64,000 bases of DNA from Aquimixticola soesokkakensis (GTDB taxonomy: Bacteria; Pseudomonadota; Alphaproteobacteria; Rhodobacterales; Rhodobacteraceae): NCBI RefSeq assembly GCF_900172375.1, contig NZ_FWFS01000005.1, positions 124,001 through 188,000 on the forward strand. Reading direction: 5' to 3'. The translations under genes were made by a program, and so were the position numbers. The notes below the pieces were generated by a model. It did not search any database and was not told the origin of the DNA. It was given only the letters and a program-made list of their open reading frames with translations. This document shows positions 32,365 to 37,081 of this stretch, in pieces (position 1 is the first letter of the stretch; the number at the start of each line of letters is the position of its first letter).

Positions 32365-33891
<1,527 letters not shown>

Positions 33892-33959: not shown

Positions 33960-35006
33960 TCACGCGGCGCGGGCCTTGTATCTTTTATGCGCCTGCGCCC
34001 ATGCGTCCGCAAAACGGTCCACATCGTTGCGCGTCACGCCCGGCCCGATCGAGACCCTGAGCGCGCTTGACGCCTGACTATCGTTCAGGCCCATCGCCCG
34101 CAAGACACGGCTTGCCCGCACCTTGCCCGACGAACAGGCCGATCCTGCCGAAACCGCAAAACCGGCAAGGTCCATCTGCATGACCTGCGTTTCGCCCTTC
34201 CAGCCTTGGGTCACGAAATTCACCGTGCCTGCCAGCCGCTTTTGTCCCTGCCCGACCACGATCCCCTCGGGCGCGGCCTCCAACAGCCGTGCCTCCAGAT
34301 GGTCGCGAATCTCGGCCACCGCGTCCCAAACGCCCTGCGCCTGGGCCTGGGCCGCCGCCTCTGCCGCAGCACCAAAGCCTGCGATCCCGATCAGGTTTTC
34401 GGTGCCCGAGCGGCGTCCCATTTCCTGACCGCCGCCCATGATCTGCGCAGTGACATCCAAACCCTGCTTGAGGACCAGCGCCCCGACGCCTTTGGGCCCG
34501 CCCAGTTTATGCGCCGACACCAGCGCCATGTCGCAGCCCAGCCAGTTGAAGGCGATTGGCAATTTGCCAAAGGCCTGCGTGGCATCACAAACCGCCAGCC
34601 CCTGCGGCAGGTCCTGCACGATCCCCGTTTCCGAATTGGCCAGTTGAAGCGCCGCGCGGGCCGGATCAGCCACGCAGACCTGCCCCGCAGCATCGACCGG
34701 CGCATCCACGACGCACCACGAAGACACCGCTTCGTGTTCGACATGCGAACAGTGCAGGTCCCGCCCCGCCAGCGCCAATCCGGCAGCTTCGGTCGCGCCC
34801 GAGGTGAAGACGATGTCAGCCCCCTCTGCCCCGAAGGCCTGCGCCACCTGCGTGCGCGCGCGTTCCAAAAGCGCCTTGGCCGCGCGCCCTTCGCTGTGCA
34901 CGCTTGAGGGATTGCCGAGCACATCCATGGCCGCGATCATGGCCGCGCGCGCCGCATCGTGCAGCGGCGCTGTGGCATTCCAGTCAAGGTATGGGCGATT
35001 GCTCAC
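33960..35006 (-). CDS. Cysteine desulfurase, IscS/NifS type
   Basis: Class V PLP enzyme, 348 aa, shorter than E. coli IscS (404), as is usual for the second gene of Rhodobacterales isc-suf operons. PLP Lys167 is in VSAHKLGGPKGVG and the sulfur-accepting Cys291 is on a flexible loop (SAGSACSSGKV), the group I pattern. LDWNATAPLHDAAR and GNPSSVHSEGR are typical starts. The operon thus has two desulfurases, this one and SufS at its end. Confidence 0.93.
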   Translation of the reverse strand: MSNRPYLDWNATAPLHDAARAAMIAAMDVLGNPSSVHSEGRAAKALLERARTQVAQAFGAEGADIVFTSGATEAAGLALAGRDLHCSHVEHEAVSSWCVVDAPVDAAGQVCVADPARAALQLANSETGIVQDLPQGLAVCDATQAFGKLPIAFNWLGCDMALVSAHKLGGPKGVGALVLKQGLDVTAQIMGGGQEMGRRSGTENLIGIAGFGAAAEAAAQAQAQGVWDAVAEIRDHLEARLLEAAPEGIVVGQGQKRLAGTVNFVTQGWKGETQVMQMDLAGFAVSAGSACSSGKVRASRVLRAMGLNDSQASSALRVSIGPGVTRNDVDRFADAWAQAHKRYKARAA

Positions 35007-35048
35007 GTCAGACTCTTTTCGTTTGTCACTCGGTGTTCGACGACGGCT

Positions 35049-35507
35049 CTATTCGTCCACGACCACAAACAGGTTGGGCACGGCTGGACAGGGGCTTAGT
35101 TCGTTGGTCACCACATCCGAGAGGCGCGATTGGTGCAAAAAGACATAGACCTGCGCCGAAAGCCCTTCCCACAGGCGGTTGGTCATCGATTGCGCGCGGC
35201 TGCCCGACACGCCGCCCGATGCCCCTGCGCCGGTGTGCATCGCCGACACGGTTTCATCGACCGCCTCCAGAATGTCGCTCACCCGAATCTCCGACGGGAT
35301 CTTGGCAAGGCGATAGCCCCCGCCCGGTCCGCGCACCGAATCCACCAGACCCGCGCGGCGCAGCTTGACGAAAAGCTGTTCGAGATAGGGCAGCGAAATA
35401 TCCTGTCGCTTGGAAATCTCCGCCAAAGACAACAGCTTGCCCTCTTTTTGCAGCGCCAGATCAGCCAGAGCGACCATCGCATAGCGCCCCTTTGTACTCA
35501 GTTTCAT
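35049..35507 (-). CDS. iscR: IscR-type Rrf2 regulator with a single cysteine
   Basis: A 152-aa Rrf2 regulator heading the Fe-S operon. The winged helix covers about residues 1-65 (MKLSTKGRYAMVALADLAL, LPYLEQLFVKLRRAGLV, SVRGPGGGYRLA). The three cluster-binding cysteines of E. coli IscR (92, 98, 104) are replaced by the Gly/Ser-rich stretch AMHTGAGASGGVSGSR. The only cysteine is Cys140 in ELSPCPAVPN. Rhodobacter sphaeroides IscR is known to be of this unusual type and still to bind a cluster and repress iron-sulfur genes. Expected to autoregulate through the promoter near 35920. Confidence 0.92.
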   Translation of the reverse strand: MKLSTKGRYAMVALADLALQKEGKLLSLAEISKRQDISLPYLEQLFVKLRRAGLVDSVRGPGGGYRLAKIPSEIRVSDILEAVDETVSAMHTGAGASGGVSGSRAQSMTNRLWEGLSAQVYVFLHQSRLSDVVTNELSPCPAVPNLFVVVDE

Positions 35508-35884
35508 CGCCCGTTCTCCAACCCGTCGTTACAAGGCATCTCCTGCCACAGGCAGGCGCCCCCGTTTTCTGGCACATTCCTAGCGCGCAGGGCGCGGTTA
35601 GGAAACACACAGCACCCACACACAGCGTACCGACACAGTCCCGTTGCCCGCCCGTCGGCAGCCCGTTTGCAGCCTGCCCGCAGCCCGCCTGAACCTCGCC
35701 CGTTCAGCCAACCAGCACCGCCTGAGCGCGAAATACTGCCCGCTTTGGGCCTAATACCCGTCAGCGACAGCAAAAAACCGCCCCCAACCGCGCGAGAATC
35801 CCCATCCATCATTGACGCAGAGGCCTTTGACGCTTACCTCCGTGTCACCCGTGCGCGGCCACCGACTGTGGGTCGTTGCCACTG

Positions 35885-35901
35885 TTTAGAATTGTTCTAA
35901 G
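35885..35901. promoter_or_regulatory. Irr box (iron control element)
   Basis: TTTAGAATTGTTCTAAG: perfect TTAGAA/TTCTAA arms around 3 bp, matching the alphaproteobacterial Irr/ICE consensus of TTTAGAA-N3-TTCTAAA type. It covers the -10 of the presumed iscR promoter on the minus strand. Confidence 0.72.
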
Positions 35902-35922
35902 GTGCCTGACCGAATTCGTCAA
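35894..35922 (-). promoter_or_regulatory. Predicted promoter of the iscR-suf operon
   Basis: On the minus strand, TTGACG (35922-35917), 17 bp, then TAGAAC (35899-35894). The -35 lies in a dyad TTGACGAATTCGGTCA that could be the IscR site; the -10 lies in the Irr box. Start of transcription would be about 380 nt before the iscR ATG. Confidence 0.6.
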
Positions 35923-36157
35923 GAATGAAGGTCGCGGAATTCCCCCAGCGAATTCCACCACCCCCCTAGAGCTGTGCTGGACAGACGCAACCGTTGCCAG
36001 CCCCGCGTTGTCGGGGCCCCTGCGCCCCCGTCAAAGCGGCCACGACAAAGCGCGGACAAGACACTGCGGCCTCGCGCCGTTCAACGAAGATCGTTGCAGG
36101 CCCCGCGCCTGCGCGAAACCAGACCAAGCGCACCGCGCTGCAGGAGACAGGGACCCG

Positions 36158-36811
36158 ATGCCCGAAGTGATTTTTCCCGGCCCCGAAGGCCGGCTTGAAG
36201 GCCGTTATCACCCCCAGCGCGAGCGCGACGCCCCCATCGCCATCATCTTGCACCCGCATCCGCAGTTTGGCGGCACGATGAACAACCGCGTCGTCTACAA
36301 CCTGCATTATGCCTTCCACAACATGGGCTTTACCGTGTTGCGGTTCAATTTCCGGGGGGTGGGCCGCTCGCAGGGCGAATATGATCAGGGCATTGGTGAA
36401 TTGTCCGATGCGGCCTCGGCGCTGGATTACCTGCAATCGCAAAACCCCAATGCCAAACATTGCTGGGTTGCGGGCTTTTCCTTCGGGGCATGGATCGGCA
36501 TGCAATTGCTGATGCGCCGCCCCGAAATCACCGGCTTTATTTCCGTGGCTCCGCCCGCGAATATGTACGATTTTTCGTTCCTGGCGCCCTGCCCGTCTTC
36601 GGGTTTGATCATCAACGGCACCGCCGACCGTGTGGCCCCGCCCAAGGACACCGAAACGCTGGTGAACAAGCTGCACGAGCAAAAAGGCATCACCATCACC
36701 CACGAACAAGTCGAGGGTGCGGGGCATTTCTTTGAAGACCCGCATATGGAAACCATGATCGGATCGGTGGATGGCTATGTGCGCCGTCGCCTGACCGAAA
36801 ACAGCCGCTAA
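36158..36811 (+). CDS. Alpha/beta hydrolase (dienelactone-hydrolase-like serine esterase)
   Basis: A 217-aa soluble hydrolase. The oxyanion segment IILHPHPQFGGTMNN lies at 29-43 and FNFRGVGRSQG follows. The nucleophile is Ser108 in AGFSFGAW; the acid is probably the Asp of NGTADRVAPP and the histidine that of GAGHFF. This variant with HPHP...GGTM is a widely conserved group with no settled substrate. The ATG at 36158 has AGGGAC upstream. It starts a three-gene run with the 86-aa and tandem-HD proteins. Confidence 0.9.
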   Translation: MPEVIFPGPEGRLEGRYHPQRERDAPIAIILHPHPQFGGTMNNRVVYNLHYAFHNMGFTVLRFNFRGVGRSQGEYDQGIGELSDAASALDYLQSQNPNAKHCWVAGFSFGAWIGMQLLMRRPEITGFISVAPPANMYDFSFLAPCPSSGLIINGTADRVAPPKDTETLVNKLHEQKGITITHEQVEGAGHFFEDPHMETMIGSVDGYVRRRLTENSR

Positions 36812-36820
36812 GGACCCATC

Positions 36821-37081
36821 ATGAGTGCGACGAACGACCTAGCCGATGCGCTGGCGCGCGACACGATCGAGGCCATGGCCGAAACCGGCGACGACCAGCT
36901 CGTGGCCGAAGTCGCACGGGTGATCGGTGCCACCTCGACCACCACGCAGGAGGCGTTTCTGACCGCCGCCCGCGTGCGCATGGCCGAACAGCGCGGGCGG
37001 GCTTTTCTCGAGGCGCGCATCCGCGAAATCAGGACCGGCAGTGCGCGCACCGAGGCCCCGCAGGACAGCGGCAACGACTAG
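36821..37081 (+). CDS. Small helical protein, family not recognised
   Basis: An 86-aa, mostly helical, acidic protein (DLADALARDTIEAMAETGDD; RVRMAEQRGRAFLEARIREIR), with no membrane segment and no cysteine. It starts 9 bp after the hydrolase gene and ends 2 bp before the tandem-HD gene, so all three are surely cotranscribed. The tight packing supports it being real; function unknown. Confidence 0.75.
   Translation: MSATNDLADALARDTIEAMAETGDDQLVAEVARVIGATSTTTQEAFLTAARVRMAEQRGRAFLEARIREIRTGSARTEAPQDSGND

Follow-up and report, generated by a model that had tools for sequence, protein, structure and literature searches.

We think it fairly probable that the iscR-suf promoter in the window, the whole 64 kb stretch of DNA analysed here, is controlled by two regulators, IscR and Irr. 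Control by IscR is well supported by homology, and control by Irr is probable but unproven. The promoter, from a member of the Rhodobacterales, is of the type called P2 in Rhodobacter sphaeroides. Its elements and the genes downstream are:

35917 to 35922, minus strand: -35 hexamer TTGACG of the P2-type iscR-suf promoter; TTGAC is kept in 63/63 box-bearing loci
35907 to 35922, minus strand: dyad resembling an IscR box or Iron-Rhodo-box, TTGACGAATTCGGTCA, with the symmetries TGA-N9-TCA and GAC-N7-GTC
35894 to 35899, minus strand: -10 hexamer TAGAAC; in relatives the TAGAA columns are kept in 57-59 of 59 and the C in 37/59
35885 to 35901, minus strand: candidate Irr box (ICE), CTTAGAACAATTCTAAA, over the -10 to about +1
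35049 to 35507, minus strand: iscR, Rrf2 family, with a single Cys at 140
33960 to 35006, minus strand: iscS-type cysteine desulfurase (aminotransferase class V)
32365 to 33891, minus strand: sufB

The sequence-only reading had placed TTGACG-N17-TAGAAC on the minus strand inside two dyads, and its sequence and coordinates (35922 to 35894, with a spacer of 17 nt between -35 and -10) were confirmed, as was the iscR-iscS-sufB order of the operon downstream. To call this a good promoter was a little strong: the hexamers are present, but TAGAAC agrees with TATAAT at 4/6 positions, lacks the final T and is a weak -10, and a generic sigma-70 scan of 34500-37000 reported no promoters, P2 included. From the hexamers alone, the start site would lie at about 35887. 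The -10 does fall within an Irr/ICE match, as had been claimed. We take the Irr box consensus to be the palindrome TTTAGAA-N3-TTCTAAA; CTTAGAACAATTCTAAA matches it at 13/14 positions, with 0 mismatches in the 12-base core.

A closely similar arrangement is known from R. sphaeroides. There the start of P2 was mapped by dRNA-seq, and relative to it an IscR box is predicted at -36 to -19 and an Irr box at -13 to +1 (PMC6956336, Nie et al. 2019); that paper credits the predictions to Rodionov et al. 2006. Compared by layout, the window promoter is alike, with an IscR-box-like dyad over the -35 and spacer and a candidate Irr box over the -10 and +1, upstream of iscR, and TTGACGAATTCGGTCA, which covers the -35 and spacer, occupies the position that the IscR box has in R. 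sphaeroides. The two-site architecture is therefore already in print, and the window adds a member with lineage-specific changes, namely a long leader and the lack of an internal box.

In R. sphaeroides, IscR binds and represses P2, and this control has been shown experimentally (PMC6956336, PMC4618611); P2 is the main iscRS promoter (PMC6956336). The window IscR has Cys 140 as its only cysteine, in a CP motif (SPCPAVPNL), as is characteristic of the single-Cys IscR proteins of Rhodobacteraceae. This residue and the proline after it are comparable to C142/P143 of R. sphaeroides IscR, whose C142 has been mutated in published work. The window protein scored 140.9 bits against the equivalog for E. 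coli-type IscR (TIGR02010), below the cut-off of 207.55.

The evidence on Irr is divided. In two studies, EMSA showed no binding of Irr in vitro to the iscR region of R. sphaeroides (PMC6956336, PMC3413700). Irr did bind the internal promoter P3, which has an Irr box (PMC6956336). In an irr mutant, P2 activity was about 2-fold lower under iron repletion (PMC6956336), so that the effect of Irr on P2 is small and activating in sign. Dual iron control by Irr plus IscR, as proposed in the sequence-only reading, thus stands for IscR at the R. sphaeroides homologue, but its Irr half is weakened by the failure to bind there. These observations favour an alternative in which IscR alone controls P2, the Irr-like palindrome being conserved to serve the promoter or a different regulator, and Irr acting elsewhere (for example at a box inside iscS) or indirectly. 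We judge this possible but rather unlikely, and the distribution of the palindrome among relatives bears directly on it.

To the window we added the best 80 of 562 confirmed relatives' iscR loci, giving a sample of 81, and searched the sequence upstream of iscR to a limit of 1000 nt, calling an Irr-type box at 10 or more of 14 matching positions. The sequence-only reading had looked to conservation upstream of iscR in relatives, and this is what was found: an Irr-like box was present in 62 of the 80 relatives (63/81 with the window). In every one of these 63 loci the distance from the start of TTGAC to the box is exactly 21 nt. Across 59 unique relatives the distal arm of the palindrome reads TTC in 59/59, then T in 49/59, then A in 59/59. 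This arm lies beyond what a -10 needs, yet it is nearly fixed, and over the start site its conservation is close to that of the -10 arm. Several loci that have no box retain TTGAC together with another -10 at a similar place. A conserved distal arm, and box-less loci with a different -10, indicate that the arm is not a core-promoter need, which argues against control by IscR alone. The box of Cereibacter changlensis (L063), a species that we take to lie near R. sphaeroides, has the arm TTCCAAA; the negative binding result in R. sphaeroides might likewise reflect a weak box. Three pattern searches for the R. sphaeroides P2 sequence, derived from a published primer, gave no match, one in 394 genomes and two in a single genome each.

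The composite TTGAC-N18-TAGAA-N3-TTCYAA was present in 299/394 family genomes, counted wherever it occurs in the genome and not by its place relative to iscR; its reversed control gave 0 among the results listed. In the right half of the TGA-N9-TCA dyad, the same 59 unique relatives have T in 49/59, C in 48/59 and A in 25/59, with G in that A column in another 25/59. The base before TC is C in 32/59 and G, the window's form (GTCA), in 20/59; the exact right half of the window therefore differs from the commonest form of the family.

The box was absent in 18 of the 80 relatives. Loss of irr was rejected as the cause: 49/49 genomes searched contain an Irr relative (58-75% identity), including all 17 of the box-less ones searched. 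The search took in 49 genomes of the 80 loci, 50 having been submitted and one (L019) left out. Because Irr is present in all box-less genomes searched, Irr control at P2 would be dispensable in those lineages.

In the window itself, TTAGAA-N3-TTCTAA at up to 2 mismatches has 1 match, the P2 box, which has 0 mismatches; 0.26 matches are expected per window, and 21 of 100 shuffles contained at least one. In the genome (3.49 Mb), 5 distinct sites match TTTAGAA-N3-TTCTAA with no more than 1 mismatch. At up to 2 mismatches there are 13+13 matches against 17+19 for the reversed control, so only near-perfect matches stand out; this control covers the class of up to 2 mismatches, the near-perfect class having no separate one. 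For the dyad, 35 exact genome matches to TTGAC-N7-GTCA were listed, 5 of them one place counted on both strands. In the window the -35 dyad is matched 15 times at up to 1 mismatch, with 9.5 expected. As lone matches are common in both genome and window, the IscR dyad was rejected as strong stand-alone evidence. The pair of dyads rises above chance because of its fixed register and its column conservation in relatives.

The genome encodes a clear Irr (L091, ORF 1375-1839), which scored 203 bits with NF045678 (cut-off 150) and 198 bits with NF045677 (cut-off 170); its neighbour is presumably fabA. Besides the P2 box, the near-perfect sites are:

L001, L004, L007 and L008, each at 1501 to 1516: other near-perfect Irr-type boxes, with at most 1 mismatch

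One falls between nfuA (Nfu_N/NifU) and a universal-stress-type ORF, and another immediately precedes an mbfA-type gene (rubrerythrin and VIT1 domains). A third is close to the start of lipA (Radical_SAM/LIAS_N) and to that of a peroxiredoxin-type gene running divergently, and the last comes shortly before a gene of glutathione-reductase type (Pyr_redox domains). For mbfA, the universal stress protein, the peroxiredoxin and the glutathione reductase, the naming follows our own reading of the proteins. By this reading all five boxes, that of P2 included, adjoin Fe-S, iron or redox genes, and the four others suggest a small Irr regulon with Fe-S and redox genes at its core. In R. sphaeroides mbfA the Irr box likewise lies at the transcription start, which fits repression by occlusion, and Irr binding was shown at mbfA and not at iscR (PMC3413700). 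The mbfA-type gene of the window genome is similar in having a box right before it; the iscR promoter differs from mbfA in carrying an additional IscR-type site.

Many relatives carry a second Irr-type box inside the operon. In 52/81 loci the sequence downstream of the iscR start contains a box with 10 or more of 12 positions matching, against 3/243 trials with shuffled sequence. It lies mostly 1.15-1.35 kb from the iscR start (for example 1155 nt in locus L017), with a few near 1.6 kb, and it was inside iscS in 7/7 box-bearing loci among the 10 listed of 15 examined. Over the 52 loci its commonest reading is L-R-N-I-L-E (25 loci), most often encoded by CTT AGA AAT ATT CTA GAA (19 loci). Among nearby codons, AGA accounts for 1.1% of those for Arg (1161 codons) and CTA for 1.7% of those for Leu (1838 codons). 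Both are rare, and the second box appears to be maintained by their use. A P3-type IscR core, defined by a pattern of our own making, accompanied it in 27/52 loci and occurred in 1/29 of the others. The corresponding segment of the window is:

34293 to 34313, minus strand: iscS segment that holds the second box in relatives; here GAGATTCGCGACCATCTGGAG, no box

The neighbouring P3-type IscR motif is also absent in the window (34248-34265). Unlike R. sphaeroides, the window therefore has neither the P3-type Irr box nor the P3-type IscR box inside iscS, and since the iscS segment has no box, P2 holds the only Irr-type box there at up to 2 mismatches. This again speaks against IscR acting alone at P2 with Irr working through another box. 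The claim that dual control of this one promoter explains the response of the whole operon was too strong in general, because in R. sphaeroides isc-suf is also driven from P1 and from the internal P3 (PMC6956336). It is more plausible here, as the P3-type boxes are missing.

In the 79 loci with enough sequence (two of 81, L031 and L035, were dropped because their downstream sequence was short), both boxes were present in 36, the P2 box only in 25, the internal box only in 15 and neither in 3, so that 76/79 carry one box or both. That one box compensates for loss of the other was considered and is a trend only (Fisher p = 0.09, with relatives that are not independent).

On the other side of the promoter, a gene divergent from iscR is faced by a second promoter-like site:

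35812 to 35839, plus strand: opposing P5-type promoter-like site TTGACG-N16-TTACCT, facing P2, which would transcribe the hydrolase gene
36158 to 36811, plus strand: alpha/beta hydrolase, at the position of R. sphaeroides RSP_0444, the presumed target of the opposing promoter

The hexamers of the opposing site are at 35812-35817 (TTGACG) and 35834-35839 (TTACCT), and its start would be at about 35846. In R. sphaeroides, P5 opposes P2, serves the hydrolase gene RSP_0444 and raises P2 activity (PMC6956336). The window is alike in having a promoter-like sequence directed toward the hydrolase gene, and on that basis the opposing site appears to match P5. The consensus common to the loci is CATTGAC-N17-TTAACT. 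Its -35 reads GTCAA on the sense strand and was present in 81/81 searched regions (75 nt in 63 loci, 150 nt in 18) against 18/648 background windows of 75 nt. In 37 of the 63 loci the first GTCAA match falls 55-60 nt past the box; a few of the first matches, including that of the window at offset 53, are decoys. The opposing promoter also served as an internal control for conservation at P2: over the 16 columns following TTGAC there are 9.8 bits at P2 and 4.5 at the opposing promoter, the latter from 46 unique sequences with a 16-nt spacer. With starts placed from the hexamers, the facing promoters of the 63 loci are 19-50 bp apart (median 30, window 41), a fitted geometry, since the best-scoring hexamer pair was picked for each locus.

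This arrangement allows a broader proposal, which we regard as speculative and unlikely in its entirety. The facing P2 and hydrolase promoters, about 30 bp apart family-wide, would form a compact switch with direct polymerase interference, in which Irr at the P2 start would both close P2 and block the opposing transcript. The iscS-internal Irr operator, held in rare codons, would serve as a backup, absent in lineages such as that of the window, which would rely on the P2 box alone. In a limited literature search we found no account of family-wide conservation of the opposing promoter pair or of the iscS-internal box.

The distance from the P2 box to iscR is a further difference from R. sphaeroides:

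35508 to 35884, minus strand: stretch between the box and iscR, 377 nt, the longest of the 63 box-bearing loci

The 377 nt to the ATG compare with 69-202 nt in the other 62 box-bearing loci. Two Celeribacter loci (L058 and L076) also combine a long leader with a box at P2 only. The leader length in the window, and the existence of a conserved opposing promoter-like site, could be taken to mean that the chief role of the Irr box is at the opposing promoter. Irr at 35885-35901 would then block hydrolase transcripts from near 35846, and iscR transcription would begin at an unrecognised promoter closer to the gene, within the leader. This is highly improbable, as in 63/63 box-bearing loci the box lies over the -10 of P2 and keeps a fixed register with the -35 of that promoter, and P2 is the main iscRS promoter in R. 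sphaeroides (PMC6956336). The generic promoter scan is of no help on this point, because it reported none at all, P2 included.

Two explanations of the leader itself were rejected. It is not a repeated element, with no other copy in the genome (the next match is 22 bases, E 0.175), and it shows no RNA structure beyond chance, its fold energy lying at the shuffle mean (z = -0.03). Much of the leader is taken up by a 102-aa ORF (35504-35812, minus strand) whose stop overlaps the iscR start codon (ATGA); it had zero Pfam matches, is probably due to chance and is not claimed as a gene. An inverted repeat, TTCCTAACCGCGCCCTGCGCGCTAGGAA, was spotted by eye at 35577-35604 on the minus strand, about 70 nt before iscR.

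If IscR and Irr both act at P2, as we favour, cluster-bound IscR on the dyad over the -35 and spacer would repress when Fe-S clusters are plentiful, as shown at the homologous promoter, and Irr on the palindrome over the -10 and start site would shut P2 when iron or haem is short. As the two would repress at opposite ends of the iron scale, the operon would be strongest with iron present but clusters being lost, for example under oxidative stress. The suf operon of rhizobia is regulated by RirA, an Rrf2-family repressor acting at high iron, together with Irr at low iron. The window promoter would be alike in pairing an Rrf2-family repressor at high iron with Irr at low iron, and different in that the Rrf2 partner is IscR, encoded inside the operon, rather than RirA. 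The accessible portion of PMC8300815 holds nothing on Irr as a suf regulator.

The counts presented here sharpen a conflict: the palindrome is kept on the P2 start in 62/80 relatives, yet Irr did not bind there in vitro in R. sphaeroides. A relative in which a near-perfect P2 box is the sole Irr-type box may test direct Irr control of Fe-S assembly more cleanly. The window has a near-perfect box and no other of the Irr type, so its arrangement may offer a cleaner test than R. sphaeroides, which has P3 as well.
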